A stretch of 39,740 nt of DNA from Deltaproteobacteria bacterium. Lineage in GTDB: Bacteria > Desulfobacterota > Syntrophia > Syntrophales > JAIPED01. The stretch covers positions 1 to 39,740 of the forward strand of contig JAIPED010000012.1 in NCBI GenBank assembly GCA_021737325.1, given 5' to 3'. The translations under genes were made by a program, and so were the position numbers. How positions within the stretch are numbered: position 1 is the stretch's first letter; each line of letters begins with the position of its first letter. This document shows positions 11,323 to 38,094 of the stretch, one piece after another. A model generated the notes under the pieces. It did no database searches and was not told the DNA's origin. It worked only from the letters and a program-made list of their open reading frames with translations.

Positions 11323-11500
11323 TAGCAGTGTTGGTAGGATTCCCTTCAATACTTTTGGAACAAAAGCGGCAACCCGCATAGCAAAAGAAGTATGACAAGG
11401 CAACCGCCGAGATGAAATTGTTCGCAATGCGAAAAAGTCCTTGCTTATATTCGGTTTTTTTTTTAGTTGCTCTCCCTTAGACACTAGGGGGTTGCGGACC

Positions 11501-11782
11501 ATGGCAAAGATTAGCAAGGGCGATTATCTCAGTTGTGAAATATGCGGCTTGTCTCTCATCGTTGATGAAACCAATGCCTATGGCAAAGCGGAGGTTATGT
11601 GTTGTGATTTCCCCATGGCGAGCGGAAAAGCTTCTGCGGCGCGTGCCAGGAAAAGGGCAAAATTACTGAGAGCGAAAATAGAGGAAAGCAAATCGCAAAG
11701 GGCTCTCTCAGATGGGGACAAAAAGGTAGTCAAAAGCAAGGGTACTCAAAACGGTGGCAAGAATGAAGCCCCGTCTAAGTAG
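11501..11782 (+). CDS. Desulforedoxin-like metal-binding domain with basic C-terminal tail
   Basis: I start at ATG 11501 (MAKISKGDYL), giving 93 residues; the frame is open for 20 codons upstream without a better site. Residues 7-38 read YLSCEICGLSL...VMCCDFPM, which follows the desulforedoxin / desulfoferrodoxin N-terminal pattern of C-x2-C and a later C-C pair ligating one iron or zinc. The spacer between the pairs is slightly longer than in desulforedoxin. The remaining 55 residues are rich in Lys, Arg, Ala, Ser and Gly, like a nucleic-acid-binding tail. It sits 73 nt before the histone-like repeat gene on the same strand. A redox or zinc-ribbon role is possible; function is not known to me. 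Confidence 0.65.
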   Translation: MAKISKGDYLSCEICGLSLIVDETNAYGKAEVMCCDFPMASGKASAARARKRAKLLRAKIEESKSQRALSDGDKKVVKSKGTQNGGKNEAPSK

Positions 11783-11855: not shown

Positions 11856-12290
11856 ATGTTCGCGGACGACATTCAGGTTGTAGGTTTAGACACGGAGGCG
11901 GTTGTGTCTGAAGCGTCTCCTAAAGAAAGCAAGCTATCAGAAAAAAAACCGTTAGCCAAGAAGCCCGTTGTTAAAAAAGCAACGGAAAAGAAAGCGGCGA
12001 TTAAAAAACCGGCGGAGAAGAAGCCCGTTGTCAAAAAAGCCGCAGTGAAAAAGGTCGTGGCTAAGAAGCCCGTAGTCAAGAAAGCCGTAGCTAAAAAGGT
12101 CGTAGCTAAGAAACCCGTAGTCAAGAAAGCCGTAGCTAAAAAGGTCGTAGCCAAGAAACCCGCCGTCAAGAAAGCCGTAGCTAAAAAGGTCGTGGCCAAA
12201 AAACCCGTCGTCAAGAAAGCCGCGGTTAAAAAGGTCGTAGCCAAGAAGCCTGTAGTGAAAAAAACATCCACAAAAACAAAGAAAGTTTAA
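11856..12290 (+). CDS. Histone H1-like Lys/Ala/Val/Pro repeat protein
   Basis: The 144-residue protein has an acidic start (MFADDIQVVGLDTEAVVSEA) followed by about 115 residues of extremely basic low-complexity sequence. From residue 57 it consists of five copies of a 15-residue unit of the type VVAKKPVVKKAVAKK, the last partial, ending KKTSTKTKKV. This resembles the C-terminal tail of histone H1 and bacterial H1-like proteins that bind DNA non-specifically and compact the nucleoid. That role is inference from composition. The start has GGAAGGG seven bases upstream, and a strong bidirectional terminator follows. The open frame on the other strand is a shadow of the repeat. Confidence 0.8.
   Translation: MFADDIQVVGLDTEAVVSEASPKESKLSEKKPLAKKPVVKKATEKKAAIKKPAEKKPVVKKAAVKKVVAKKPVVKKAVAKKVVAKKPVVKKAVAKKVVAKKPAVKKAVAKKVVAKKPVVKKAAVKKVVAKKPVVKKTSTKTKKV
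12024..12263 (+). repeat. 45-bp tandem coding repeat in the histone-like gene
   Basis: About five near-identical 45-bp units (aagaaagccgtagctaaaaa and gtcgtagctaagaaacccgt blocks) encode the 15-residue VVAKKPVVKKAVAKK unit. Units differ mostly at third positions and at gcc/gta for the Pro-Val/Ala positions. Tandem identity of this length predicts copy-number variation by slippage. Confidence 0.85.
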
Positions 12291-12350: not shown

Positions 12351-12491
12351 CATCCGCCTGCCACCAGCAAGATGGTAAAATTTACTTTGCTAGTATTCTG
12401 TTTGATACCAGTAGCGCCATAGGTGGCACAAGACCGTTGGGTTGTCTGGGAAAGCAAATAAAAAACTCCCTACGATAAACGAGAGGTGAAA

Positions 12492-13280
12492 ATGGAAAGA
12501 ACGGATACCCTTTTGCTTGCAGCGAAGAATGCGGCGCTACTTGCGGGAACAATGCTAAGGGAGCGGATGTTAGAAACGCATAAAATTACCTACAAAGGAG
12601 AAATTGACATCGTTACCGAGGCGGATAAAGCCGCGGAGGAGTTGATTATTGCAAAGCTGCAGAAGACAACAAACGATTTTGAATTTCTGGCGGAAGAATC
12701 GGCGTCTTCAAACTCTATTCCCCAAAGCTGTTGGGTAATAGATCCACTTGACGGTACAACAAACTATTCGCGAGGTTATCCCGTTTTTTGTGTCTCCATC
12801 GCCTTGCGCATAGAAGGACAAGAAATTTTGGGTGTTATCTACAATCCCATGCTGGAAGAATTATTTTATGCTACCAGAGGAAAAGGTGCTTTTCTCAACG
12901 AAAAACGGGTGCGTTGCTCTCAAGTAAGTGTGTTAGGAAAAAGTCTTCTGGCCACAGGTTTTCCCTACGACATCCGCACCAATCCAGACAACAACCTGAA
13001 TCATTTTTCTGTACTAGCTAAAAAGGTACAAGCGATAAGAAGAGCGGGGGCGGCGGCTCTGGATTTAGCATATTTAGCAATGGGGCGCTTTGACGGATTC
13101 TGGGAGTTGCGCCTCAAACCATGGGATACTGCCGCGGGAGCGCTATTGGTAACAGAAGCGGGGGGAAAGGTAACAACCCTGCACGGGGAGGCGTTTGTGC
13201 TTGACGCGCCGCATATTCTTGCCAGCAATGGAATGATTCACGCTGATTTAATCAGGGCGATTGCCACTGATAACGGATAA
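12492..13280 (+). CDS. Inositol monophosphatase family phosphatase
   Basis: A Mg-dependent, Li-sensitive-type phosphatase of sugar or inositol phosphates (SuhB / CysQ / IMPase superfamily). I choose the ATG at 12492 over a GTG two codons earlier because GAGAGG lies five bases upstream of it. Metal ligands are visible: Glu68-Glu69 in LAEES, the signature Asp84-Pro-Leu-Asp87-Gly-Thr-Thr, and the second motif W-D-T-A-A-G near residue 215. The 262-residue length is typical. Downstream, the Cys-rich gene begins 58 nt later. Substrate cannot be told from sequence; SuhB-like or fructose-1,6-bisphosphatase-like activity are both possible. Confidence 0.9.
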   Translation: MERTDTLLLAAKNAALLAGTMLRERMLETHKITYKGEIDIVTEADKAAEELIIAKLQKTTNDFEFLAEESASSNSIPQSCWVIDPLDGTTNYSRGYPVFCVSIALRIEGQEILGVIYNPMLEELFYATRGKGAFLNEKRVRCSQVSVLGKSLLATGFPYDIRTNPDNNLNHFSVLAKKVQAIRRAGAAALDLAYLAMGRFDGFWELRLKPWDTAAGALLVTEAGGKVTTLHGEAFVLDAPHILASNGMIHADLIRAIATDNG

Positions 13281-13338: not shown

Positions 13339-13548
13339 ATGAGAATAGTTAATGAAGAAATTCTTTGCGGAGTTTGCCAGAACGAACGGGCAATAATTTT
13401 TTGTGATGGTTGCGATTTACCCCTCTGCGCTAACTGCCGTTTTTTTGATTTATGGGGATACGGTTGCGGCCATGTGGACACAAAAGTATTTTGTCAGAAG
13501 TGTAACGACGATATAAAGAAGAACCCGTATGGCGGAGCGATTAAATGA
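13339..13548 (+). CDS. Cys-rich zinc-binding mini-protein
   Basis: I start at ATG 13339 (MRIVNEEILC), giving 69 residues; the frame is open 26 codons further upstream with no good site. Four C-x2-C pairs (CGVC, CDGC, CANC, CQKC) plus C-G-H suggest two cross-braced zinc sites of B-box or treble-clef type. Its stop overlaps the start of the next gene as ATGA, so the two are translationally coupled. The function is not known to me; the coupling suggests it acts with, or on the same membrane target as, the YihY-cNMP protein. Confidence 0.7.
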   Translation: MRIVNEEILCGVCQNERAIIFCDGCDLPLCANCRFFDLWGYGCGHVDTKVFCQKCNDDIKKNPYGGAIK

Positions 13549-14813
13549 AGCCGTGTAGAAATCAGTTTAATCTTGGTGAGTTTATTGAACAAACCGCGCT
13601 TGAAATTAAAAACACGATCTGGGGCGCCATCAATAACTTTCAAACCAACGGAAACACCAACCATGCTGGTGCCATAGCCTTTTATTCACTGCTCTCCATC
13701 GTTCCCTTATCCTTGCTTACCGTCTTCGTGGCGGGTAACCTTTTTGATAACAACACAAAAATCTATGAAGATCTGATTTGGTGGGTTGATTATTATTACC
13801 CTGAAGTCTCGCCAAAACTTTTTTCACGGGTGTTGGAGAGGGTCGGGCAAAATACGCAAATCATCGGCTGGATTGCGCTGGCCACTTCCATCTGGTTCTC
13901 GTCATTTGTTTTTGGTGCAATTGAAACGGCTTTCAATACCATCTTCCGCTCGCGCAGAATCCGCGGCTATTTGTTATCAAAAGCATTCGCCACGGCAATG
14001 ATCCCACTATGCTGGTTAATTGCCATTTTTTCCATGGTTGCCCATCTGCTCCTGGAGAAAATTATTACTGGGACTGCCATCAGCAATTTGTTTCCTCCCG
14101 TTATGCAGACATGGATGCTTCCCAATATTCTCCCTTTTGCCGTTGGTTGGGTATTTTTTGCGATAGTTTATAAGATAGTTCCCACAAGCAAAATAAGCTG
14201 GATAGGGGCGCTGACGGGTAGCTTTATCTTTTGCTTATTGTTAGGTGCGGCAAAAATGTTTTTCTCTTGGTATATAAGCACATTTGGCTCCTACGACATC
14301 ATTTTTGGTAGTTTGGAAAAGATGATAATCTTGTTAATCTGGATGTTCTATGTGGCTTTTATTTTTCTCTTTTGTGCCGAGCTGATAGCTTCTTATGAAA
14401 GACGCAACCTTTTGCTGATAGAAAAAACCCTGCAAAAAGGGACGGATAACGCCATGCTGGAAAAAATTCTATTTCGCCGTTTCGGCATTTTTCAGCCGAA
14501 GGGTTCTTTCATTTTCAAGGAAGGGGAAGATGGAACGGATATTTTTTACATCTTGGCAGGTGAAGTTACGCTCTTGCGAGGCGAAGGGGAGGTAGTGGAT
14601 ATTTTAGGGGCAGGTAAATTTTTTGGCGAAATTGCCGCGATTACAAGCCGTATGCGCAACTGCTCCGCCTATGCCTCTGCCGATAGCGATATCGCTCGCA
14701 TAGATGCTGCCACATTGCGTAAATTGTTTAGAAACAGCGACGATTTTGCCTTCAACTTTGTGCGCGAACTGGCATATAAACTTTCCCAACAAGGAGAGAA
14801 TAAATCCTCTTAA
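13545..14813 (+). CDS. YihY/BrkB-type membrane protein fused to a cyclic-nucleotide-binding domain
   Basis: Residues 1-285 form a YihY (formerly called RNase BN) family membrane protein with about six helices; HAGAIAFYSLLSIVPL (40-55) is the family signature. Residues about 305-415 form a cNMP-binding beta-roll: FIFKEGEDGTDIFYILAGEV, then the phosphate-binding cassette FGEIAAITSRMRNC with Gly361, Glu362 and Arg371 in the positions that bind ribose and phosphate in CRP-like domains. Because those residues are kept, nucleotide binding is plausible. The 422-residue length equals YihY (about 290) plus one cNMP domain. It overlaps the Cys-rich gene by 4 nt. The role, perhaps ligand-gated transport, is inference. 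Confidence 0.87.
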   Translation: MKPCRNQFNLGEFIEQTALEIKNTIWGAINNFQTNGNTNHAGAIAFYSLLSIVPLSLLTVFVAGNLFDNNTKIYEDLIWWVDYYYPEVSPKLFSRVLERVGQNTQIIGWIALATSIWFSSFVFGAIETAFNTIFRSRRIRGYLLSKAFATAMIPLCWLIAIFSMVAHLLLEKIITGTAISNLFPPVMQTWMLPNILPFAVGWVFFAIVYKIVPTSKISWIGALTGSFIFCLLLGAAKMFFSWYISTFGSYDIIFGSLEKMIILLIWMFYVAFIFLFCAELIASYERRNLLLIEKTLQKGTDNAMLEKILFRRFGIFQPKGSFIFKEGEDGTDIFYILAGEVTLLRGEGEVVDILGAGKFFGEIAAITSRMRNCSAYASADSDIARIDAATLRKLFRNSDDFAFNFVRELAYKLSQQGENKSS

Positions 14814-14893
14814 TCGCTGTATTTTCTCTTAAGTGCCGAGAGTTTCCTAACAAACGCCTTGACAAGCTGGCATAAAGTCACTACCCGCTTCGG

Positions 14894-14970
14894 CGCGGGG
14901 TGGAGCAGTCAGGTAGCTTGCTGGGCTCATAACCCAGAGGTCGGTGGTTCGAATCCACCCCCCGCTACCA
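14894..14970 (+). tRNA. Initiator tRNA-fMet (CAU)
   Basis: A 77-nt cloverleaf with encoded CCA. The anticodon CAT is at 14928-14930. The anticodon stem ends in three consecutive G-C pairs (CTGGG/CCCAG) and the first acceptor position is unpaired (C1 opposite U72), both marks of bacterial initiator tRNA. GGTTCGAATCC is the T-arm. An open frame on the other strand here is spurious. Confidence 0.97.
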
Positions 14971-15316
14971 ATCAGGTTTTTCTCTTTTCTTCCAAGTGTT
15001 TTCATAGGTGGGCTCCATCTGCGAGCTCTTTTGGTTTGACATCCCAAGAAAGTCTGATGTAGCCGCCGCCAATATGTTTTCGGTGTGCATCTTTTGCTGA
15101 AGCGCAGATTTGCGTTGGAGATGGACTCTGGGGGGTGCAGGGGGCGGTGTAGATGGGGTATTACTTTTCTTTATTTTCTAGGAATTTCCTCTTTTTATTG
15201 TACCGTTTTGCTTCTCAGGAGAGGTGCGCCCGCATGAAAGGGGGTAGATAAAAAGATTATTTCCAGTTTTACAAAGCCAATTTAGTGTAACTACCTAAAA
15301 AAGGAGAGGAGTAGCT
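14971..15316. other. 346-nt non-coding region before the CoA-transferase operon
   Basis: Stops occur in all frames. It holds T/C-rich segments and a ribosome site AAGGAGAGGAG just before 15317. It probably contains the promoter of the CoA-transferase operon, but I see no clear -35/-10 pair or terminator. Confidence 0.6.
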
Positions 15317-16372
15317 ATGGCAAGAATTCGCGACAAACGAAAAAAAGCAGAGATAATAAGCTTGGAACAGGCTGTGAAAACCTTCATGCACGATGGTATC
15401 GTGTGTGCTTTTAGTGGGTTTACGGGTTTTAACCGCAATCCCTTTGCCTTTGCTTGGGAAACCGCAAGACAGGGGGTTAAAAATCTACATGTGCTGGATC
15501 GTCATGGAAGTCAGTGTACTTGGCTACTCAATGCGGTTGAAGCGATCAAAATTTTTGAGACTAATTGGATGGGGTGGGGTGAAATGGCAGGGAAGTTGGA
15601 TATGAACCTGCAACGGAATTACAAGGCTGGCAAAATGATCCTTGAGGATTATTCCCACGGTGCTACCGCCATGCGTTTTCTCGCCGGCGCCGTTGGTGCT
15701 CCCTTTATTCCTTACTATGCTCCACTCGGTTCCGACTTGTACAACCCCAAGTATGATTCCTTGGGGAAGGCAGGACTTAGAGATGGAAAAAATCCCCGCA
15801 TCGCCAAGAAAAAATTTATCCAAATGGAAGACCCCTTTTATGGTGATGGAGATGTTATTTTAGTCCCTGCCGCCAGGCCTGAATTGGCGATCATCCATGT
15901 CGCTCAGTGTGGAGAAAAAGGAACTGCCCGCTGGCGCGGTGTTAGTACAATAGATAAGGAAATTGCCTTTGCTTCGGATAAGGTGATCATCCTTGCCGAG
16001 GAAGTTGTTTCTGAAGCGGAATTGAGGAAAACCCCCGAAGCGAACCAAATTCCCTTCTTTACGGTCGATGCCATCGTTGAGTGCCCTTGGGGTGCTTTTC
16101 CCAGCTCGGTACCTTTCTATTATGACTACGACGCGCCTTTCATGAGAGAAATGGATAAGGCATCTAGAACCCCCGAAGACATCAAAAAATGGTTGGATGA
16201 ATGGGTTTTTGGTCCTGCCAATTGGGAAGATTTTGTCATTAAGCTAGGCGCAAAGCGTCTGCTGGACTTGAAGGCTGACAGCGTTAGCGGTTACAGCTCT
16301 CGCATGTTGCGAGGAAAGGTTCCGCCTCCAAGAATGACTCTGCCGTTGTCCGTTATCAGAAGCGGCTACTAA
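15317..16372 (+). CDS. CoA-transferase family I, alpha subunit (glutaconate CoA-transferase A-like)
   Basis: The alpha subunit of a heteromeric enzyme that moves CoA between acyl donors and acids. The 351 residues fit the GctA-type subunit. Visible features are the N-terminal strand ISLEQAVKTFMHDG, the glycine-rich GFTGFNRNPFAFAWE loop, ILEDYSHGATAMRFLAGA, and the region AARPELAIIHVAQCGEKG. The catalytic glutamate resides in the beta subunit, encoded 19 nt downstream. A strong AAGGAGAGG site precedes the ATG. With the acyl-CoA dehydrogenase downstream, it may activate a short-chain or dicarboxylic acid. The acid cannot be named from sequence; glutaconate is only the nearest named family. Confidence 0.85.
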   Translation: MARIRDKRKKAEIISLEQAVKTFMHDGIVCAFSGFTGFNRNPFAFAWETARQGVKNLHVLDRHGSQCTWLLNAVEAIKIFETNWMGWGEMAGKLDMNLQRNYKAGKMILEDYSHGATAMRFLAGAVGAPFIPYYAPLGSDLYNPKYDSLGKAGLRDGKNPRIAKKKFIQMEDPFYGDGDVILVPAARPELAIIHVAQCGEKGTARWRGVSTIDKEIAFASDKVIILAEEVVSEAELRKTPEANQIPFFTVDAIVECPWGAFPSSVPFYYDYDAPFMREMDKASRTPEDIKKWLDEWVFGPANWEDFVIKLGAKRLLDLKADSVSGYSSRMLRGKVPPPRMTLPLSVIRSGY

Positions 16373-16391
16373 GAAAGGAGGAAGATAAGCA

Positions 16392-17297
16392 ATGGCGAAA
16401 AAGAATATGGAACAGTTGATGGGACTTATTGATAAAATGCCTACGGTCCCTGCCAAGGTTGGTGAATTTATATTGATGGAATTGATGGCAATTGCGGTTG
16501 CACGGGAAGTCCGCAATGACGACATTGTTTTTGCTGGCACTGGTTTACCCATGGTGGGTATCATGGCTGCAAACCTGTTGGATACCCCTAACGCAACCTT
16601 GATTTATGAATCGGGGATTTGCGACGGGAAGACCATGCATGTTCCCCTTTCGGTTGGAGATCAACGAGCAGCGAATCTGAGTTCAACCCTCGGTGGCCTG
16701 GTGGATACCTTCGGGTACTATTTGCAACAGGGTTTTGTTAGCCTTGGCTTTCTCGGAGGAGCGGCGATTGATAAGTATGGCGGGGTGAATGTTACTTCCA
16801 TCGGCGACTATTTTTCACCTTCTCACCGCTTTACGGGTTCAGGGGGCAATTCCGATATCGGAACAATGGCGCGACGAACCGCCTTCATCATTCTGCAAGA
16901 AAAGCGAAGATTTTTGGAGCGCAACGAATATACCACCACGCCCGGTTGGTGGTGCTGGGATTTCAAGACGAATGAATGGAAGCCCAAACGGGAGGTTTGG
17001 AAAAACACCCCCTATGCCAGCAGTGGTCCTGTGGCGGTTGTTACCAATATGGGGGTGTACCGCTTTGATGAAAATGGTGAAATCTATCTGGAAACCGTTC
17101 ACCCAGGTGTGACTGTAGCGCAGGTAAAGGAGAATTGTGGTTTTGACCTCAATGTTTCGCTCGTTAAAGGGGAGACGCTAGCGCCGAATTATAAGGAGCT
17201 TTTTGTTCTGCGCGAGTTTGTTGATCCTGAGCTGATATTCCTGCCGCAGAAGGTGGAATACACCAAAGCGATTCAGAGCATTATTGACGCAGGTTAA
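16392..17297 (+). CDS. CoA-transferase family I, beta subunit with catalytic Glu
   Basis: The catalytic partner of the preceding gene. Glu73 in LIYESGICDGK matches the nucleophilic glutamate of family I CoA-transferases, which forms a glutamyl-CoA thioester. GTGLPMVGIMAANLL (49-63) and FLGGAAIDKYGGVNV are further family marks. The 301 residues are slightly longer than the roughly 265 of the Acidaminococcus GctB; the extra length includes a Trp-rich segment TPGWWCWDF. The ribosome site AAAGGAGG is strong. A rho-independent terminator follows at 17308, separating this pair partly from the dehydrogenase gene. Confidence 0.87.
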   Translation: MAKKNMEQLMGLIDKMPTVPAKVGEFILMELMAIAVAREVRNDDIVFAGTGLPMVGIMAANLLDTPNATLIYESGICDGKTMHVPLSVGDQRAANLSSTLGGLVDTFGYYLQQGFVSLGFLGGAAIDKYGGVNVTSIGDYFSPSHRFTGSGGNSDIGTMARRTAFIILQEKRRFLERNEYTTTPGWWCWDFKTNEWKPKREVWKNTPYASSGPVAVVTNMGVYRFDENGEIYLETVHPGVTVAQVKENCGFDLNVSLVKGETLAPNYKELFVLREFVDPELIFLPQKVEYTKAIQSIIDAG

Positions 17298-17307
17298 ATA
17301 AGACTTG

Positions 17308-17339
17308 TGGGGAGGGGCTAACGCCGCTCCCCATTTTTT
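17308..17339 (+). terminator. Rho-independent terminator after the CoA-transferase genes
   Basis: TGGGGAG pairs with CTCCCCA, extended inside by GGC/GCC around TAAC, and is followed by T6. The next gene starts only 15 nt after it, so partial read-through is likely. Confidence 0.9.
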
Positions 17340-17354
17340 ATCTAGGAGGGATAA

Positions 17355-18515
17355 ATGATACTGGATTTAACCGAAGACCAAAGAATGATACAAGAAACGG
17401 CGAGGAATTTCGCCAAGAGTGAGTTGGAGCCCGTGGCGGGGAAACTTGACGAAGAAGGGGATCGGGCAACTTTTCTCAAAAATATCCGCTCATTGGCAGA
17501 TTTAGGGCTGATGGGGATCAACATCAAATCCGAGTACGGTGGTTCCGAAGCGGGAAGCATCGCCTTTTCCCTTGCCATCACCGAACTTGGTAAAGCTTGC
17601 GCCTCCACGGGGGTTACCGTATCCGTTAACAATATGTGCTGCGAAGTAATTCAAGCTATCGGTAATGAGGAACAAAAAAAGAAGTACATCGCCAAGATAT
17701 GCTCGGGGGAATACCCCGCGGGCGGGTTTGGCTTGACCGAAACAATGGCGGGATCAGATCCCGCGGGCATGCGTTGTAGCGCAGTGCTTGATGGCAACGA
17801 ATGGGTGCTTAACGGAAATAAAATTTTTATTACCAGCGCAGAATATGCGGGCGTGTTTGTTGTTTGGGCCGTAACGGACAAAAAAGCTCCTCGTGGCAAG
17901 GGGATTACCACTTTCTTGGTGGAAAATGGCATTAAGGGGCTCACCATTGGCAGAGCCGAGCACAAAATGGGGCAACATGCATCCAGTACCAATGAGCTGA
18001 TCTTTGAAGATTGTCGTATCCCCAAGGATGCCATGATGGGTGGCATAAACCAAGGATTTCGCACGGCTATAGGTGAATTGGCAGGTGGTCGTATAGGGAT
18101 TGGCTCGTTGGGATTGGGAATAGGGTTGGCGGCAATCGAATACGCAGCCAAGTATGCACAAGAACGGCGACAATTTGGCAAGCCTATTGCTGAATTTCAA
18201 GCAATCCAGTGGATGATAGCAGAGTCCTGCACGGAGTTAGAAGCGGCAAGATTGTTACTGATGAATGCCGCGTATCAAAAAGATCAAGGCCGTCACTTCG
18301 CCCGACAGGCATCCATGGCAAAATACTATGCTACAGAAGCGGCGGAGCGCGCCTGTTACAACGCGATACAAATTCTGGGCGGCTACGGATACACGAAAGA
18401 GTTTCCCATTGAGCGCTATGCCCGCGATGTTAGGGTAACTTCCATCTATGAGGGCACCAATCAAGTACAGCGGCACATCATCGCAATGGATATCCTTTCT
18501 TCACTGAAAAGATAA
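17355..18515 (+). CDS. Acyl-CoA dehydrogenase (short-chain type), second copy
   Basis: A 386-residue FAD-dependent dehydrogenase. Motifs run in family order: ACASTGVTVSVNNM, FGLTETMAGSDPAG at the flavin site, GQHASSTNELIFEDC, RRQFGKP, ILGGYGYTKEFP, and the catalytic Glu366 in IYEGTNQVQ. It resembles the copy at 2594-3742 but clearly diverges in sequence and in context, so it probably serves a different substrate, perhaps the acyl-CoA made by the upstream CoA-transferase. AGGAGGG precedes the ATG. A non-decarboxylating glutaryl-CoA dehydrogenase role was considered because of the glutaconate-type transferase, but no residue pattern that I can see decides it. Confidence 0.9.
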   Translation: MILDLTEDQRMIQETARNFAKSELEPVAGKLDEEGDRATFLKNIRSLADLGLMGINIKSEYGGSEAGSIAFSLAITELGKACASTGVTVSVNNMCCEVIQAIGNEEQKKKYIAKICSGEYPAGGFGLTETMAGSDPAGMRCSAVLDGNEWVLNGNKIFITSAEYAGVFVVWAVTDKKAPRGKGITTFLVENGIKGLTIGRAEHKMGQHASSTNELIFEDCRIPKDAMMGGINQGFRTAIGELAGGRIGIGSLGLGIGLAAIEYAAKYAQERRQFGKPIAEFQAIQWMIAESCTELEAARLLLMNAAYQKDQGRHFARQASMAKYYATEAAERACYNAIQILGGYGYTKEFPIERYARDVRVTSIYEGTNQVQRHIIAMDILSSLKR

Positions 18516-20222: not shown

Positions 20223-21182
20223 ATGAAGTTCCGCCTACCAAAAATAAATTATGATACTTCAGCGCTGGGGATTGCTCTCAAGGAGCGTTCTCTGGAGATG
20301 GCGCAGGTCGCAAAAACACCCACGGGCTATGCTGTTGAGCGACTTGTTTTTGCCGCAATTCCTCCCCAGACGATCATTGATGGAATGCTTGTAGATGAGA
20401 AGGTTTTTTCTGCCATTTTTGATCGGTTAATCGCCCAGATAGCAAGCAATAACCATCACAATGTAGTGCTTTGCATTCCTGGTTCATCTGCTTTTGTTAA
20501 GCGAATTCTCTTTCCCGCTCCTTCTCGGGAGGAGGTTACCAAGATTCTCCGCGAAGACTTCAACATGTATTTTCCCTTTTCCAGCCATAGTGAAGTCTAT
20601 TTTGATATTGCCGAGATGGGAAAGGGACCTTCAGACCATTTGGAAGTCCTTGTCGTTGCTTGCAAAAAACGAACGATTGATAGCTACTTGGAGGTAATAC
20701 AAGATCTCGGCATTAACCCTATGGCTGTTGATGTCGCTTTTTTTGCCCTCCAAAATCTTTTTGAAACGGTAAATGGGAGGACTGATGTTATTAATATGCT
20801 TGTGGATATCGGATACCCTGAAGTTAACATCAATGTCGTAAAACACGGCATTTCTTTGTTTACCCAGGATATCTTCTTGCCGGAGAGCGTCAATCCCGCC
20901 CATTTTTTAGGAGAGGAAATAGAGCGCGCCATAGTTTACTACGATTCACTAGCCAAGGGGCTCGGTATAGAATGTGGGATCCTAAGCGGCGAGATGGCCT
21001 CGCAAGCTTTATTGGAACATTTGCAAGAAAGGCTACCAGTTCCCCTTCGCCTACTAGAAACATTTCACCATCGGGTGTTGCGGAAAAAAGAAGCCTTTTG
21101 CAAAGCAACAAACACGGAGCTGGCGGGGAAAATGGCTTTGTGTATTGGTGCTGCCATCGGGTTGCTGGAAGCAAATGATTAA
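20223..21182 (+). CDS. pilM: Type IV pilus inner-membrane platform protein PilM
   Basis: PilM is an actin-like cytoplasmic protein that binds the N-terminal tail of PilN and forms the inner-membrane alignment complex. The 319 residues begin with the beta-strand LGIALKERSLEMAQVAKTP and contain the pilM-type VVLCIPGSSAFVKRILFPAPSREEV, MLVDIGYPEVNINVVKHG and a C-terminal CIGAAIGLLE. It is at the short end of the family (about 320-350). Its stop overlaps the ATG of the interrupted pilN by 8 nt. Order pilM-N-O-P-Q is canonical. Confidence 0.9.
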   Translation: MKFRLPKINYDTSALGIALKERSLEMAQVAKTPTGYAVERLVFAAIPPQTIIDGMLVDEKVFSAIFDRLIAQIASNNHHNVVLCIPGSSAFVKRILFPAPSREEVTKILREDFNMYFPFSSHSEVYFDIAEMGKGPSDHLEVLVVACKKRTIDSYLEVIQDLGINPMAVDVAFFALQNLFETVNGRTDVINMLVDIGYPEVNINVVKHGISLFTQDIFLPESVNPAHFLGEEIERAIVYYDSLAKGLGIECGILSGEMASQALLEHLQERLPVPLRLLETFHHRVLRKKEAFCKATNTELAGKMALCIGAAIGLLEAND

Positions 21183-21738
21183 AATTAACCTGTTAAGGGA
21201 TCATTAAAAAAAGAAAAAAGCTCGCCCTGCGCCTAAGAAGAGCTCGTCGCGGGTCCTGGTTTATCTTCCCTATGTCGTTCTGTCTTTGGCAGCGCTCTTA
21301 TACGGGATCTCCTCATGGGAATTGGATTACCGAAAAAGAACCATAGAGTTGCTAAATGAAAGAATCGCTTTTCTGGATAGCACAAATAAAAAAATTCTTA
21401 TTGCTAAGCGGGTCGAGATGAAATTCCAGATAGCGGAATTCGTTAAAGAAGTGCTTGTGCGCAAATCCTCGGGAACGATTGAGACGACAAGAAGGATTGT
21501 GGCTGCGCTAGAACCAACCACGATATGGCTGGAAAGAGTCAGCGTTGGTCCTCAAGAGGTCATCATTTCTGGATTTGCCCACAAAGCACAAGAAATACCC
21601 ACCTACATAAAAAATCTGAAAAGAAACGAAGACTTATTCAAGCAAGTTACCCTCGTGTCTATCAAGCAAGCCGCCAGTAAGGATGGTAAAATCCACGGGT
21701 TGTTAATAAAATGTGAGAGAAGAGGCCCCTCCAGATGA
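21175..21738 (+). pseudogene. pilN: pilN interrupted by an in-frame TAA at codon 11
   Basis: PilN links PilM to PilO in the inner membrane. An ATG at 21175, overlapping the pilM stop, opens MIKINLLRDH, the canonical PilN N-terminus. The next codon is TAA (21205-21207). The very same frame then continues KKKKARPAPKK, a transmembrane helix (VLVYLPYVVLSLAALLYG) and the PilN periplasmic domain to 21738, giving 188 codons, the normal length. No frameshift is needed, only one base change in a Lys, Gln or Glu-type codon. Downstream starts (TTG 21286) lack a ribosome site and would lose the INLL motif that binds PilM. It ends in an ATGA overlap with pilO. Confidence 0.85.
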
Positions 21739-22310
21739 AGGTGACCTTCAAAAATATTAAGGAAAAGCATGCGGGGAAGTTTTTACCAGGGGGGGTACTT
21801 CTCCTCGCGCTGTACATCGCTTGTCTTGCCGCAGATAATTTTTGGAAGGCACAATCGCTTGGTCAAGACATCGCCTCGCGGCAACAAATTATTTTGATGG
21901 GAGAAAGAAAGATTGCCCAAACAGCCGTTGCTTCCTTGTTGCAGGAGGAAGGTTCCCTGCGCATTGCCCAGGTTGAAGAAATACCCTCTTTGCAGAAGGG
22001 CTTACTTAACGCTCTTTCCGCAATAGGTGATCTGGAGTTGCGTTCTTGGGAGACAATTCCGCCAGTAAATCCCAAATCGCTACTTGCCTTGGGAGACAGC
22101 ACTGTTGTGGAAAATTATTTGCGCATTACCACCGTAGGTAGTTTTGAAAAAAACAAAGCATTTTGGGAAGTTATTGATACAATCAGCCTGGCTCATGAGG
22201 TTGAATCCCTTCTTTTGGAGGGTGTTGTAGCAGAAGGGAATAGGGTGGATATTGGGATGACGCTGGTTCTCAAGTTATTTGTTTTGATGGAGAATAAAAA
22301 TGGTTCGTAA
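21735..22310 (+). CDS. pilO: Type IV pilus inner-membrane protein PilO
   Basis: PilO pairs with PilN through periplasmic coiled coils and a ferredoxin-like fold. The 191 residues have a short cytoplasmic start, one transmembrane helix at about 17-36 (LPGGVLLLALYIACLAADNF), a coiled region at about 40-70, and an alpha/beta domain ending VLKLFVLMENKN. Sequence identity in this family is low; position between pilN and pilP and the topology carry the assignment. It overlaps pilN by 4 nt and pilP by 11 nt. Confidence 0.82.
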   Translation: MKVTFKNIKEKHAGKFLPGGVLLLALYIACLAADNFWKAQSLGQDIASRQQIILMGERKIAQTAVASLLQEEGSLRIAQVEEIPSLQKGLLNALSAIGDLELRSWETIPPVNPKSLLALGDSTVVENYLRITTVGSFEKNKAFWEVIDTISLAHEVESLLLEGVVAEGNRVDIGMTLVLKLFVLMENKNGS

Positions 22311-22698
22311 CAGATTGTGGTTCCCGCTGTTAGTTGTAGTTGTTTCATTTATTATCGCTTTTTCTGCCCTCGCCCGTGATCCCTTCGCACCCCAACTAAA
22401 AACTCAATCAGCCAAGGATTATACGGCGGCTAACCATAACGCTTCGCTAAGAGATTTTGACATTCAACATACCGCCGTTTTGGGGATTGCGATACGAGAG
22501 AATAACACGGTTGTGATGCTACACGATAACATAACAGGAGCCTCTCTTCCTGCCCGGCGAGGGAGTTTGATCGGGACCAAGGGGCATAGGATTACGGAAA
22601 TTCACGATAATCAAGTTGTGATTAGCGCCGAAAAACCTGCGAGACAGGGAAAAAACACCTTCGTGCTGTCGATAGGAAAGAAAGGGGATAACCCATGA
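22300..22698 (+). CDS. pilP: Type IV pilus assembly protein PilP
   Basis: PilP connects PilN/O to the secretin. The 132 residues have an N-terminal hydrophobic helix (8-26), then the family hallmark RDPFAPQ directly after it, and a beta-rich domain whose core reads TAVLGIAIRENNTVVMLHD and GSLIGTKGHRITEIHDNQVVIS, the HQ-domain pattern. There is no lipobox cysteine, so it is not the usual lipoprotein and is probably anchored by its uncleaved or cleaved signal helix. The order and the overlap with pilQ (ATGA) support the call. Confidence 0.87.
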   Translation: MVRNRLWFPLLVVVVSFIIAFSALARDPFAPQLKTQSAKDYTAANHNASLRDFDIQHTAVLGIAIRENNTVVMLHDNITGASLPARRGSLIGTKGHRITEIHDNQVVISAEKPARQGKNTFVLSIGKKGDNP

Positions 22699-24020
22699 AA
22701 AACCATCACGCAAAAAAAATTGCTCCCCATTTTATCCTCTGTTTGTTGACGGTGCTCTTTTTTCACCATAGCGCCTTGCACGCGGAATCGGAGAATATCG
22801 CCAAAAATGCAACCCACCCAAGGGTGGAGTTTTCTAGTTCCGAGAATATTTCTTTAGATATTAGCAACATGGACATCAAATCAGCAATTTGGCTAATTGC
22901 GGAAATAAGCCAGCAAAACATCGTTTATAATAATGAAATCGGGGGAACCGTTTCCGCCAAGCTTACTGATGTCCATTGGCGCTCGGCGCTCAAAACCGTT
23001 GCGAAGCTCGTCGGCTTAGTTGTCGTGGAGGGGGAAGGAGTCACTTCCGTAACCACAGTTGACCGATTGCTAAAGAGTAATGAGGAAAAACGGCACCTTG
23101 AAAAAGGACTCTGGGAAGCGGAGGTTGCTAAAAAGGAAAGGGAACAAGGAGTGCTTGCCGCAAGAGGCAAGCTACAACAGGTAACGATAGAAGCCAAGAT
23201 CGTGGAGGTTTCCGACGATTTTGCCCGCTCGCTAGGAATTCGTTGGGGAGGCTCATTAAGGGGTACGGGGCAATACCCCTCTCAGCTTGTCGCGGGCACA
23301 AACCCCCCAACAAACCGTTTAGTTAGCGCGGCGTATCCCGATGGAATTGCGTTTGTTGATGCCTCAGGAAAATCCCTCTCAATGGCGCCCGTTAACTTTC
23401 CCTCCTCTCTTGCTTCTCCCACCTTGGGGTTTGTCATCGGCGGCTCCAACGCCGTTTTAGAAGCACAGCTACAAGCTTTGGAAACTAACAGCCAAGGCAG
23501 AATAATATCCTCTCCGCGAATTACAACCATTGACAATGTTAAGGCCACCATTTCGCAGGGGGAAGAAATTCCGTATGTAACTCCCGGCACTTCAACAACC
23601 CCTGCCTCGGTTAACTTCAAGCAAGCGCTATTAAAGCTGGAGGTAAAACCGTCAATAACGGCGGAAGGAAAGATAGCCCTAGAGGTATTGGCAACCAACG
23701 ATTGGCCAAACTACAGCAAGGCAACAGCGCTAACGAACTATGTTCCGCCAATAAGCACCAGCATGATAGAATCGAAGGTTGTTATCAACGATGGCGATAC
23801 GCTGGTAATCGGAGGAATACATAAAAGTAGCAATTCGACAGGAGTTAGCGGTGTTCCCTTCCTCCAAAAAATTCCCCTGATCGGCTGGTTCTTCAAATCC
23901 GAAGATGTAAGCAATGCACATAAACAGCTACTTGTCTTTGTTACTCCTCGTATCGTTCCCGAAGAAAAATCGGTGCTGACTAAGGAAGAAGAGCGATTAT
24001 GGAAAATGAATGCCCGCTAA
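22695..24020 (+). CDS. pilQ: Type IV pilus secretin PilQ, compact form
   Basis: PilQ forms the outer-membrane pore. The 441 residues are far shorter than the usual 600-900. After a signal peptide (about 1-30) comes one STN/N0-like domain at about 50-125 (ISLDISNMDIKSAIWLIAEIS), a charged linker at about 130-155, then the secretin domain from about 157 (VTIEAKIVEVSDDFARSLGI). It ends with the signature VIGGIHKSSN...VPFLQKIPLIGWFF and LLVFVTPRIV. The N-terminal AMIN domains that bind peptidoglycan in most PilQ proteins are absent, as are extra N1 repeats. It ends 12 nt from the convergent pilX-like gene. Confidence 0.9.
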   Translation: MKNHHAKKIAPHFILCLLTVLFFHHSALHAESENIAKNATHPRVEFSSSENISLDISNMDIKSAIWLIAEISQQNIVYNNEIGGTVSAKLTDVHWRSALKTVAKLVGLVVVEGEGVTSVTTVDRLLKSNEEKRHLEKGLWEAEVAKKEREQGVLAARGKLQQVTIEAKIVEVSDDFARSLGIRWGGSLRGTGQYPSQLVAGTNPPTNRLVSAAYPDGIAFVDASGKSLSMAPVNFPSSLASPTLGFVIGGSNAVLEAQLQALETNSQGRIISSPRITTIDNVKATISQGEEIPYVTPGTSTTPASVNFKQALLKLEVKPSITAEGKIALEVLATNDWPNYSKATALTNYVPPISTSMIESKVVINDGDTLVIGGIHKSSNSTGVSGVPFLQKIPLIGWFFKSEDVSNAHKQLLVFVTPRIVPEEKSVLTKEEERLWKMNAR

Positions 24021-34142: not shown

Positions 34143-35096
34143 ATGCCTGTTAAAAAACTGAAACCTGAAATATTTGAACCACTCCTTTTTAAGTTGCCGA
34201 TGAGTGGAGAGCGATTGCAGATTCAGAATACTGTCTCTTTTTCTCCTGTCTACAAGAACAAAGAGAATATTTTGTATGAAGGAGATAGTATCAAGTGGTT
34301 AAAAAGTCTTACAAGTGAATCTGTTGATCTCATTTTTGCGGACCCACCATACAACATAAAAAAAGCCGATTGGGATAAATTCGAGAGCCAAGAAAAATAT
34401 ATTGAATGGTCTATGCAGTGGATCAGTGAGTCATCCCGTGTCTTAAAAAAAACAGGCACACTTTATATCTGTGGTTTTTCCGAGATTCTGGCTGACCTTA
34501 AACATCCTTCGATGAAATATTTCAAGGGGTGCAAGTGGATAATATGGTATTACAAGAATAAAGCCAACCTAGGTAAAGACTGGGGGCGGTCACATGAGAG
34601 TATTCTTCATCTCAGAAAAAGCGGACATTTTACCATGAATATAAATGATGTCAGAATCCCTTATGGAAAGCATACATTAAAATATCCGTCTCATCCTCAG
34701 GCTGAAACAAGTCAGTATGGCAACGGAGGCAAACGAAATGATATTTGGACACCACACCCAAAAGGAGCGAAGCCAAAAGATATTATCGAAGTGCCCACAA
34801 TCTGTAATGGAATGGAAGAAAAGACACCGCATCCGACTCAAAAACCAGAAGAACTGTTACGAAAATTAGTATTAGCCTCTTCTAATCCAAACGACTTAGT
34901 TGTTGATCCGTTTTCGGGTTCTGGCACAACCCTTGTTGTTGCCGAACAATTAGGGCGCAGATGGCTCGGTTGTGATTTGTCTCATGAATATAATGAATGG
35001 GCTATGCGGCGCTTAGAAAGTATCCCACACAAAACAAAAGAGGAATGGATAGCCCTCGACCGAGAAAATAAAAACAGAAGGAACTCAATTCGATGA
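34143..35096 (+). CDS. Type II DNA methyltransferase (beta class, N4-cytosine or N6-adenine)
   Basis: The modification half of a restriction-modification pair. The 317 residues carry the catalytic ADPPYNIKKADWD (DPPY at 67-70) before the AdoMet-binding VVDPFSGSGTT (F at 257), so motif IV precedes motif I, as in beta-class amino-methyltransferases. TPHPTQKPEELLRKLV precedes motif I as in the family. DPPY with this order fits m6A or m4C; sequence cannot say which. The codon use is AT-richer than the core genes. It overlaps the endonuclease gene by 4 nt (ATGA). Confidence 0.9.
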   Translation: MPVKKLKPEIFEPLLFKLPMSGERLQIQNTVSFSPVYKNKENILYEGDSIKWLKSLTSESVDLIFADPPYNIKKADWDKFESQEKYIEWSMQWISESSRVLKKTGTLYICGFSEILADLKHPSMKYFKGCKWIIWYYKNKANLGKDWGRSHESILHLRKSGHFTMNINDVRIPYGKHTLKYPSHPQAETSQYGNGGKRNDIWTPHPKGAKPKDIIEVPTICNGMEEKTPHPTQKPEELLRKLVLASSNPNDLVVDPFSGSGTTLVVAEQLGRRWLGCDLSHEYNEWAMRRLESIPHKTKEEWIALDRENKNRRNSIR

Positions 35097-35995
35097 AGTT
35101 AAAAGATGTTGTAGACATAGCAACCGATAAAGATAATTTCCTTACCATATCGGATTATACAAATTTTTGTTTGATGTATTTAGAGTTTATAAAAACAGAA
35201 TTACAGGCAGTGATTGTTTCGAAAAACGAAACTCATTACAGGTTCTTTCAATATAAGCAGGATGGAACATATAATGTTACCAGACCAATAAATAGCAACC
35301 TGATGCTGTCATTAGAGCATTTTGAATCTTGTCAAAAAACATTCAAAGACATTTTAGCTAACATCAAGAGTAAAGAGGCAAAGCAGGAAGAAAACAGGAA
35401 ATTGTTGAATGATTATATTTATACCTGTCAGCAATCAATAGGTGCAGCATTAGACGCACTTCCATCCAACAGATCAAACACTGCCAGAAAGATTAACGGA
35501 GACCTTTTTGAACGGTATATCCGGCTAATTATTAAAGAAGTAGGGGTTGATGTTTCTTCCGGGACTATTTGTGTTCCCGTCAAAGTTAATGGCAATGTAG
35601 CATTTTCCATGAGCTATCAGCATGATTTGATAATTAAGGTTGATGATGCAACTAAGGCTATTGGCTCTGTTAAGACATCAAGCAAAGATCGACTTGATAA
35701 AATATTCATCGATAAATTTCTTCACAACAAGCTAACCGACACAGAGACACCTCACTTTGCTATTTTTCTTAATGATGTCCAAAGAACAGGGAAAGAAGGC
35801 AAATATGGAATCAACTCTACATTTTTGCCCGGGCATTTTAAGGGATACACAATCAAACTGAACCCATTGGATGGGGTTTATTACTTTGATATTCGTCCTA
35901 ATATGACAAGCGAAAATATACTTAAAGACCAAATTAAGACCTTTGACAATTTCCTAATTCATGATGTGTGGAAATTTCACGGATATGAGAAATAA
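35093..35995 (+). CDS. Probable type II restriction endonuclease, PD-(D/E)xK type
   Basis: A 300-residue protein translationally coupled to the methyltransferase. A PD-(D/E)xK-like core is visible: Glu140 in GDLFERYIRLIIKEVGVD, Asp178 in YQHDLIIKVDD, and S192-V-K194 in GSVKTSSKDRLDKI. The K-T-S-S-K-D-R string resembles the K-T-T/S-x-K-D-R segment of several type II endonucleases. An attC-like site follows its stop codon within 4 nt. I do not recognise its specificity. The identification rests on gene coupling plus this motif. Confidence 0.78.
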   Translation: MKLKDVVDIATDKDNFLTISDYTNFCLMYLEFIKTELQAVIVSKNETHYRFFQYKQDGTYNVTRPINSNLMLSLEHFESCQKTFKDILANIKSKEAKQEENRKLLNDYIYTCQQSIGAALDALPSNRSNTARKINGDLFERYIRLIIKEVGVDVSSGTICVPVKVNGNVAFSMSYQHDLIIKVDDATKAIGSVKTSSKDRLDKIFIDKFLHNKLTDTETPHFAIFLNDVQRTGKEGKYGINSTFLPGHFKGYTIKLNPLDGVYYFDIRPNMTSENILKDQIKTFDNFLIHDVWKFHGYEK

Positions 35996-35998
35996 AAC

Positions 35999-36069
35999 AC
36001 ATAGCAAACCGTTGCACCTGATATTTTTCCGCTCCGCTCCAAAAATGCAGGTGAACTCAAACATTAGTG
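35999..36069 (+). repeat. Integron attC-like site after the endonuclease gene
   Basis: CACCTG..ATTTTT (36015-36028) pairs with AAAAAT.CAGGTG (36041-36053), flanked by TT and AA with a single extrahelical G, the layout of attC L boxes. Outside lie ACATAGCAAACC and CTCAAACATTAGTG, which correspond to the common ACATAACAAACC...CTCAAACGTTAGTG with both core triplets changed (AAC to AGC, GTT to ATT). So the fold is intact but the core boxes have decayed. Confidence 0.6.
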
Positions 36070-36149
36070 CGTGATGCCGCGCCGGACTCAGCAACAGCAT
36101 AGCACGGCTCCGTCGGTACATTATGGGCACACAAAATAGAGGGGTAAAA

Positions 36150-38090
36150 GTGAAACTATACGAAGCATTAAAGAAACAACTCCAACAAGAACCCACCTTG
36201 GTTACAGACAACGGAGAGCTGAAAAAATGGGTGGTGCTGAACAGAGCACAAAATTTTGATGAGGCACTCATCGGGCTATTGCTCAAAGATGACCTGCTCA
36301 AAGAAAAATTCTTTAAGCAGGTGGCAGGCGTTTTGGTCTTTAACCAAAACTTGTTTGTGCAGTTTTTGGAGCAGAAAAACTACTTGAACGACAGCTACAC
36401 CCAATACAAAAACAAGGTTGGACTGACCATTGACGGCAAATACCTGAAACAACGCAACGAAGTGTCTTTGGTTTGGCCTTTTAAAGACTGCATTTTGGAA
36501 GGCGGACAGAGCCGCGAAGAGGACAAGCGAGAAGAAATTTTCTTCAACGAAATTTTAGCTCAAGATGAAATTACTCAACTATTAGAGCCGAAGGTTTTGA
36601 CCAACGCCAAACGCATCAATGCCGCAGGCGAAAAGCCGCTTGAACAGTTTAAGCGCAATGAAAACGGAACTATAACCGACAACCTTATTATTAAAGGCAA
36701 CAACCTTCTAGCCTTACATACTTTGAAAGAAGAATTTGCAGGGAAAATAAAGCTGATTTACATAGACCCGCCGTATAATACGGGTAAAGATTCGTTTGGC
36801 TACAATGACAGCTTTAACCATTCGACTTGGCTAACATTTATGAAAAATAGATTAACGCTCTCAAAGCATTTTCTGTCAAAGACAGGAGTAATATTCATTC
36901 ACTGCGACAATAATGAACAAGCGATGCTAAGAATTTTATTGGATGAAATTTTTGGCAAAGAACAATTTATTGAAACGATAACTGTAGTGAATAACCCACG
37001 GGGCAGGGATTATGGTGGTATAGCGAACATGCACGAATATATTCACATATTTTCAAAAAGTCAGTTTGATTATGAAATGTTTAGAATAGTTGATGAGGGG
37101 AAAAAATTTCCGTTTACTGATAAAATTGGTGGCTTTGAAACTAGAGAGCTTAGAAACAGAAACACAGCGTTCAACGATAAAAATCGACCAAATCTTTGCT
37201 ATCCGTTCTATGTAAATCCAAATAAAGAACTTGATAACGGATTTCTTGAATTGTCTTTGGAACCCCAGAAAGGCTTTATTGAAGTTTGGCCAGCAAAATC
37301 GCAATATATTCAAACCGTCTGGCGCTGGGGAAAGGAAAAAGCACGCGAAAATCTAAACGTAAATATTGCAGGCAAGGTAATGCACGAAAATGGACGATTT
37401 ATGGTCATTGAAAAGTACAGAGATAATTCAAGATTAGCAAGGTCTGTATGGTGGGATAAGGAAGTTAATTCTGAAAGAGGAACCGTTCATTTAAGAGAAT
37501 TATTGGGTAGCAAGGTTTTTAATTTCCCCAAACCTGAAACATTGTTGAGTCGGATAATCCAAATATCCACTATCGAAGGTAATGTTGTTATGGATTATCA
37601 TTTGGGCAGTGGGACCACTGCCGCAGTAGCCCACAAAATGAATCGTCAATATATTGGAATAGAACAAATGGATTACATCGAAACCGTGGCAGTACAAAGG
37701 CTTAAAAAAGTTATTAAAGGAGAACAGGGTGGAATTTCAAAATCCCTCAATTGGCAAGGCGGTGGGGAGTTTGTTTATCTTGAACTCAAAAAATACAACC
37801 AAACTTGCATGGAGCAAATTGAAGCAGCCCAAGACACCGAAACCCTTTTACAGATATGGGAACAGATGAAAGCCAAGAGCTTCCTGAATTACAATGTGGA
37901 CATAAAGAAGCACGATGAACACCTTGAAGAATTTAAAGTCCTAAGTCTCAAAGAGCAAAAACAACACCTTGGCCAAATACTGGACAAAAACCAATTGTAT
38001 GTAAATCTTTCTTCGCTCAATGATAAAGACTTTGCCTGCACAAAAGATGAAAACAAAGTAACCAAAGATTTTTACCAAATAAAAAAGTAA
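36150..38090 (+). CDS. mod: Type III restriction-modification methyltransferase (Mod)
   Basis: Mod recognises and methylates adenine in an asymmetric site and is needed by Res for cleavage. I start at GTG 36150 (VKLYEALKKQLQQEP), which has GAGGGG at 5 nt; the frame is open to an ATG at 36123. The 646 residues have the type III layout: an N-terminal region, IYIDPPYNTGKDSF (DPPY at 206-209), a large target-recognition region at about 280-440, then motif I as YHLGSGTTAAVAHKMNRQYIGIEQ near residue 485. No long simple-sequence tract for phase variation is seen. It is coupled to res (4-nt gap). Composition is AT-rich relative to core genes. Confidence 0.92.
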   Translation: MKLYEALKKQLQQEPTLVTDNGELKKWVVLNRAQNFDEALIGLLLKDDLLKEKFFKQVAGVLVFNQNLFVQFLEQKNYLNDSYTQYKNKVGLTIDGKYLKQRNEVSLVWPFKDCILEGGQSREEDKREEIFFNEILAQDEITQLLEPKVLTNAKRINAAGEKPLEQFKRNENGTITDNLIIKGNNLLALHTLKEEFAGKIKLIYIDPPYNTGKDSFGYNDSFNHSTWLTFMKNRLTLSKHFLSKTGVIFIHCDNNEQAMLRILLDEIFGKEQFIETITVVNNPRGRDYGGIANMHEYIHIFSKSQFDYEMFRIVDEGKKFPFTDKIGGFETRELRNRNTAFNDKNRPNLCYPFYVNPNKELDNGFLELSLEPQKGFIEVWPAKSQYIQTVWRWGKEKARENLNVNIAGKVMHENGRFMVIEKYRDNSRLARSVWWDKEVNSERGTVHLRELLGSKVFNFPKPETLLSRIIQISTIEGNVVMDYHLGSGTTAAVAHKMNRQYIGIEQMDYIETVAVQRLKKVIKGEQGGISKSLNWQGGGEFVYLELKKYNQTCMEQIEAAQDTETLLQIWEQMKAKSFLNYNVDIKKHDEHLEEFKVLSLKEQKQHLGQILDKNQLYVNLSSLNDKDFACTKDENKVTKDFYQIKK

Positions 38091-38094
38091 GCAA

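Follow-up and report, generated by a model that had tools for sequence, protein, structure and literature searches.

Proteins of the YihY/BrkB family are widespread, and we know of no biochemical activity that is generally accepted for them; a role as transporters is putative. The family includes Escherichia coli YihY and, presumably, E. coli YhjD. Excerpts of one study report that YhjD binds LPS and co-purifies with LptB (PMC3219608). YihY is also listed among families with predicted structures in excerpts of a second source (PMC4602095), and a YihY-family gene has a modest positive CRISPRi score in those of a third (PMC13108547); neither observation bears on mechanism. In PRK04214 (NCBIfam 'ribonuclease BN/unknown domain fusion'), YihY is followed by a cytosolic C-terminal domain. 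Cyclic-nucleotide-binding domains (CNBDs) are part of Crp/Fnr regulators such as CAP, MtbCRP, GlxR and T. thermophilus Crp, which combine the CNBD and C-helix with a winged helix, and of cyclic-nucleotide-gated channels and transporters (SthK, MlotiK1, HCN and SLC9C1), in which the CNBD lies C-terminal to a membrane domain. A literature search found no work joining YihY, ribonuclease BN or BrkB with cyclic nucleotides or their binding, and broader searches contributed nothing about function.

The gene described here joins a YihY/BrkB membrane domain to a CNBD. It is located in a 39,740-nucleotide stretch of DNA from a bacterium of the order Syntrophales (hereafter the window), which is contig C8 of a 1.49-Mb genome in 72 contigs that is 89% complete. 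The locus contains the following features:

12486..13280, + strand: inositol-monophosphatase-family gene upstream of the mini-protein gene (PF00459, E 3.4e-70)
13339..13548, + strand: gene of a Cys-rich mini-protein, 69 aa plus stop (zf-B_box match, family alignment, distribution)
13545..13548, + strand: ATGA stop/start overlap of the mini-protein and fusion genes (sequence)
13545..14813, + strand: YihY-CNBD fusion gene, 422 aa plus stop (Pfam BrkB and cNMP_binding, relatives, predicted structure)
13656..14405, + strand: YihY/BrkB membrane domain, residues 38-287 (PF03631, TIGR00765)
14496..14735, + strand: cyclic-nucleotide-binding domain, residues 318-397 (PF00027, model match to MtbCRP)
14625..14657, + strand: phosphate-binding cassette, G361-E362 to R371 (alignment of 58 sequences)
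14739..14801, + strand: last helix, residues 399-419, at the position of the Crp C-helix (DSSP of the model)
14894..14970, + strand: tRNA-Met(CAT), 80 bases downstream of the fusion gene (ARAGORN)

Re-reading of the sequence bore out the open reading frames with their starts and stops, as well as the ATGA overlap with a four-CxxC mini-protein, as given in a preliminary description of this DNA. Four-base overlaps occur in 5 of the 33 co-directional neighbour pairs of the window, this pair included, as counted from a gene list compiled by hand from the open reading frames, and the overlap is therefore unremarkable here. Elsewhere in the window, a gene at 11856-12290 (+) encodes a 144-aa Lys/Ala/Val repeat protein with a match to histone H1-like HC2 (PF07382, E 1.4e-17). 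Just upstream of it is an open reading frame of at most 113 aa (11441-11782) whose weak likeness to the N-terminal domain of desulfoferrodoxin falls short of the cut-off (E 0.01). Downstream of the fusion are genes of a CoA-transferase-like protein (weak matches) and an acyl-CoA dehydrogenase (15317-18515), PilM-, PilN- and secretin-family genes forming part of a type IV pilus-like cluster (20223-24020, +), and a DNA methylase gene followed by a type III restriction-modification-like pair of methylation subunit and ResIII (34143-39612, +).

The fusion of YihY to a CNBD, which the preliminary description had read from the letters, was confirmed by two Pfam matches well above their cut-offs. Virul_fac_BrkB (PF03631) matches with an E-value of 2.9e-38 and 132.4 bits against a cut-off of 33.7, over profile positions 6-258 of 259, and cNMP_binding (PF00027) with an E-value of 1.3e-15 and 57.6 bits against a cut-off of 27.5. 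The family profile TIGR00765 gives 84.5 bits against 73.15, so that the membrane domain shared with E. coli YihY and YhjD lies above both curated cut-offs; what the window protein adds to that family is the C-terminal CNBD. With PRK04214 it scores 63.9 bits against a cut-off of 500. YihY paralogues of about 450 aa from the same genomes have a C-terminal domain that looks winged-helix-like by eye and differ from the window protein in that no CNBD was seen in the ten compared (L144-L153).

The predicted structure of the fusion protein (mean pLDDT 82, pTM 0.79) has a helical YihY part, followed by the CNBD and a last helix. The YihY part has six long helices, formed by residues 40-67, 104-133, 142-176, 185-211, 219-247, and 250-285. 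A phmmer search with the YihY part alone had a designed protein as its sole match, and structure searches with the full model were filled by matches to the CNBD, because of which we make no statement on the fold of the membrane domain. The CNBD model superimposes on MtbCRP with cAMP with a Z-score of 16.2 and an rmsd of 2.2 over 118 residues. The window protein thus has the CNBD and C-helix in common with Crp/Fnr regulators; in contrast to them, its CNBD is attached to a membrane domain and is not accompanied by a winged helix. Foldseek also finds cyclic-nucleotide-gated channels and transporters with the window model, with good alignment over the CNBD. These proteins embody the same mechanistic idea of a membrane domain with a C-terminal CNBD, but the membrane domain of the window protein is YihY, and Pfam finds no channel domain in it.

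The cassette that binds the phosphate of the nucleotide in CNBDs was compared in an alignment of the window protein with 57 relatives chosen as full length. G361, E362, and R371 are identical in all 58 sequences, in agreement with the earlier reading that the Gly-Glu and the Arg are kept. Equally invariant is G339 (58/58), which we place as the beta2-beta3 glycine. This glycine co-evolves with the cassette Arg according to excerpts of Kannan et al. (PMC2246266). The residues following the Arg differ from those of most relatives: position 372 is Asn in the window protein (Thr in 43, Ser in 10, Ala in 3, and Asn in 2 of the 58), and position 373 is Cys (Ala in 54 of the 58). The window protein therefore lacks the Ser/Thr after the Arg that is usual in the fusion family, though not defining for CNB domains. 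This Asn-Cys pair, where most relatives have Thr/Ser-Ala, speaks against cyclic-nucleotide control of the window protein.

The profile of the fusion family matches 84 of the 155 genomes of the order, the window's own included, at an E-value of 1e-60 or better. According to our sorting of the profile matches, 71 of these have the fusion as a single open reading frame, 4 as two genes, 6 have it partial or interrupted, and 3 carry another subfamily or YihY alone. Besides the window's own, the genomes listed with a match all come from the same order and from other families. Among named genomes, related loci occur in records such as those of Syntrophaceae, Smithella, Syntrophus, and Deltaproteobacteria. 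Two full-length fusions come from records labelled Holophagaceae, a family that we take to belong to the Acidobacteriota, and reflect either a binning error or gene transfer across phyla. Family f6 contains a YihY-CNBD type of greater distance, with 24-27% identity to the window protein (six listed genomes, two of them read).

The two halves also occur as separate, neighbouring genes. Four genomes of the order encode YihY and the CNBD in genes that overlap by ATGA (three genomes) or TAATG (one), and these four split forms group together in the tree. The ATGA arrangement recurs at locus L129, where the CNBD gene has 134 codons' worth of residues (134 aa) and no tail of the kind described below. 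Family f59 of the phylum has four genomes (L166-L169) in which the YihY stop codon is followed by a 6-base gap and a CNBD gene without the tail; a fifth f59 genome has a shortened CNBD frame. Stop codons differ between the f59 genomes (TGA, TAA, or both TAG and TAA within the joined match), in support of real gene ends. At L166 and L139, the CNBD encoded by its own gene scores above the PF00027 cut-off. At two f59 loci (L166 and L167), the YihY and CNBD genes lie between nadA-like and mfd-like genes, as named by eye. Our strongest evidence for a joint function of the two parts is that some lineages have them fused and others as coupled neighbours. The YihY-CNBD fusion is a real, recurrent architecture without a description in the literature searched.

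The neighbourhood of the fusion was compared among loci L061-L128. An SBP_bac_5-like gene is positioned upstream on the other strand at 33 of the 58 loci with at least 1.5 kb of upstream sequence, at a distance of 35-224 bp in 22 of these. At 33 of 68 loci, the strand opposite the fusion carries a radical SAM gene, in most cases downstream; one member of each group was checked with Pfam. Neither gene adjoins the fusion of the window.

Most relatives continue beyond the CNBD. A tail, recorded as a match to profile position 506 or beyond, is present in 70 of the 71 single-frame fusions, and the window protein is the sole exception. The first alignment had likewise shown it in all 28 relatives included (the 30 best loci comprised 29 relatives, of which one near-duplicate was dropped). 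The mean length of the tail is 88 aa in the 57 full-length relatives, which are about 90 residues longer than the window protein. The tRNA-Met(CAT) gene of the window lies inside the stretch where the tail of the relatives would be encoded. A frameshifted tail was rejected, as the six frames of 14601-15400 contain no significant match to the tail profile (best 2.0 bits).

One full-length relative was modelled (L067, 510 aa, mean pLDDT 79). In its predicted tail, a long helix is followed by two short ones, two strands and a final helix, a layout that resembles the winged helix of the Crp type. Foldseek places T. thermophilus Crp (4ev0) first for this model, with a TM-score of 0.70 by target length over 220 columns, so that, unlike the window protein, L067 also matches the winged-helix half of Crp/Fnr regulators. 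With the profile of the fusion family, the alignment to Crp proteins extends across the tail (positions 323-500). Searches with the tail sequence by itself gave a different picture. Pfam finds no consistent helix-turn-helix in the tails of 29 members (TrmB in two, HTH_27 in one, HTH_IclR in one, all at E 0.01 or worse), and phmmer with a hand-composed tail consensus found no regulator. A tail-only profile found no significant regulator in the PDB: designed armadillo repeats came first (E 0.022), and regulators followed at E 0.2-1.7, with Crp 4ev0 at 1.5. Since the tail sequence alone has no significant match to a regulator, the winged-helix reading draws on one predicted model and the longer profile. 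Because the tail after the CNBD is modelled as a winged helix in that relative, a whole Crp-like protein would be attached to YihY in the relatives. Tail-less forms exist in the window, in family f59, and at L129, which suggests that the tail is dispensable. The window protein is positioned on a very long branch of the tree (2.64), and this, together with the loss of the tail, indicates that it may have drifted in function.

We propose, with moderate confidence, that the fusion is a cyclic-nucleotide-regulated inner-membrane protein of the YihY/BrkB type, the activity of which is set by a cytosolic Crp-like sensor. The domains, the cassette and its conservation, the split forms, and the predicted fold provide the basis for this putative control of YihY. 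A cyclic nucleotide, most likely cAMP, would bind to the CNBD. Movements of the hinge and C-helix like those of Crp and of cyclic-nucleotide-gated channels would follow, and these may open, close or dimerise the membrane part. A role of YihY in the handling of envelope lipids or LPS would be a guess from E. coli YhjD. In the lineage of the window, the output would most likely pass through the membrane domain and not through DNA, because the tail is gone.

The mini-protein encoded upstream of the fusion has four CxxC pairs (C10/13, C22/25, C30/33, and C52/55) and additionally C43 and H45. An alignment of 30 family members, taken from the 30 best loci, has the nine Cys residues and His45 without variation in all 30, and its consensus is FDLWGYGCGHVDTKVFC. 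The protein passes the Pfam cut-off of the B-box-type zinc fingers (zf-B_box, PF00643; E 2.7e-6, 27.9 bits against 24.1). The match is limited to residues 5-33 and the matches in the PDB are weak (best E 0.0035), and an assignment as an ordinary zinc finger was rejected on these grounds. It differs from B-box zinc fingers in being a bacterial family with a conserved block of its own. The mini-protein is probably a separate small family, predicted to be zinc-finger-like, that shares a transcript with the fusion here. It occurs in 59 of the 155 genomes of the order at E 1e-14 (own genome included); in a sample of 297 genomes from the phylum, it was found in 16 at E 1e-10 (own genome and some members of the order included). 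A second, distant paralogue, 33% identical, is encoded in the window's own genome (contig C59, about 1050-1253), flanked by genes of an NlpC/P60-like lipoprotein and a Ski2-like helicase. More distant relatives of the mini-protein are fused to a CoA-transferase-like protein (L184, 1014-2036) or lie on the minus strand of L185, in the last part of 1190-2428, after an acyl-CoA dehydrogenase-like gene; the names of all these neighbours were given by eye.

The preliminary description had combined the mini-protein and the fusion into a dedicated two-part membrane system sensing a nucleotide together with metal or redox state, which we now regard as very unlikely. It is favoured by the ATGA overlap in the window and by near-contact in two further genomes, G003 and G022, where the next ATG follows the mini-protein gene at 4 and 16 bases, respectively. 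G003 and G022 are of one genus, and the adjacent cases thus span two families. A crude placement model, which ignores operon structure and shared ancestry, gives a probability of about 1e-6 for adjacency in two of nine families by chance, and a loose functional link may exist on this account. These three genomes are set against 28 others, among the 31 with both genes, in which the genes are on different contigs, where a contig break could hide a few adjacent cases. Twenty-eight genomes have the mini-protein without a single-frame fusion, and 40 have the reverse. In the named genomes, the mini-protein is near 1 of 75 fusion-aligned loci, again that of G022; some of these loci are partial or YihY-only, with flanks of up to 6 kb. 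The commonest downstream neighbour of the mini-protein is a 290-aa radical SAM gene (9 of 30 loci, in families f2, f6, f13, and f16), and the fusion follows it in 2 of the 30. In both trees that were computed, long branches leave the window without a clear placement, and hence neither tree supports common ancestry with the G003/G022 pair (g4). Judged by co-location and by its other neighbours, the mini-protein is probably not a dedicated partner of the fusion, and the coupling is mostly local. The co-occurrence check proposed earlier thus found the mini-protein largely not conserved beside the fusion; of the original interpretation, the link of YihY to a CNBD with an intact cassette holds and is extended by the split forms, and the system with the mini-protein is not supported.

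Two further explanations concern the CNBD itself. At least in the lineage of the window, it could be a structural module that serves to dimerise YihY, or one that responds to a different ligand in place of a cyclic nucleotide, which we consider unlikely but worth weighing. CooA has the same fold and another ligand, as do FNR and CprK. The Asn-Cys following the Arg of the window protein fits such a module. By eye, the fusion is the only one of three CNBD proteins in its genome that keeps the Gly-Glu...Arg set, and the other two, which lack the full set, point in the same direction. Excerpts of Kannan et al. 2007 (PMC2246266) describe CNB domains in which the cassette is non-canonical and the ligand a different one. 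Unlike those families, the fusion family keeps the Gly, Glu, Arg, and G339 in all 58 aligned sequences. Cyclases of class III (PF00211), class I (PF01295), and the CYTH type (PF01928) were not found in the window's genome, so that no cAMP source is in sight there, which favours another ligand; as about 11% of this genome is missing, we do not count the missing cyclase as contrary to cyclic-nucleotide control. A single GGDEF match in this genome extends over part of the model. Class III cyclases are present in most relatives (93 of 100 genomes searched, own genome included in the 100), which agrees with a cyclic nucleotide as the signal, but PF00211 is too common for a comparison of cyclase and fusion occurrence to be informative. 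Alternatively, the full-length relatives could be membrane-tethered Crp-like transcription factors, in principle similar to ToxR, with the window protein as a derivative without DNA binding. The predicted winged helix of L067, the match of whole Crp by Foldseek and by the family profile, and the SBP_bac_5-like gene on the other strand would suit such a regulator. Its recognition helix, with the consensus TGKExxEIxEVL, is acidic, however, and the tail has a mean net charge of -4.2; the 22 shared upstream regions contain no enrichment of Crp-like sites or palindromes relative to shuffles. Together with the lack of a significant PDB regulator for the tail-only profile and the tail-less forms in the window, f59, and L129, this makes a tethered regulator improbable.

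Cyclic-nucleotide control of a YihY/BrkB-type protein remains our preferred reading of the fusion. Tentatively, the fusion and split forms could represent an unreported class of second-messenger-gated YihY proteins in Syntrophales-like bacteria and their relatives, with a Crp-like receptor, either attached or translationally coupled, as the switch. The DNA-binding half of Crp would then have taken on a structural role, and some lineages, including that of the window, lack it. Because YihY occurs in natural fusions and split forms with a receptor domain that has an intact cassette, its activity is predicted to be switchable. If so, this would provide a handle for assays, in which cAMP or cGMP is added or depleted and an activity is looked for. 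If the CNBD does not bind nucleotides, the family would be another case of the fold being reused for a new ligand. If the proposed control is correct, the outputs known for cyclic nucleotides in bacteria would gain a membrane-attached Crp-like module.
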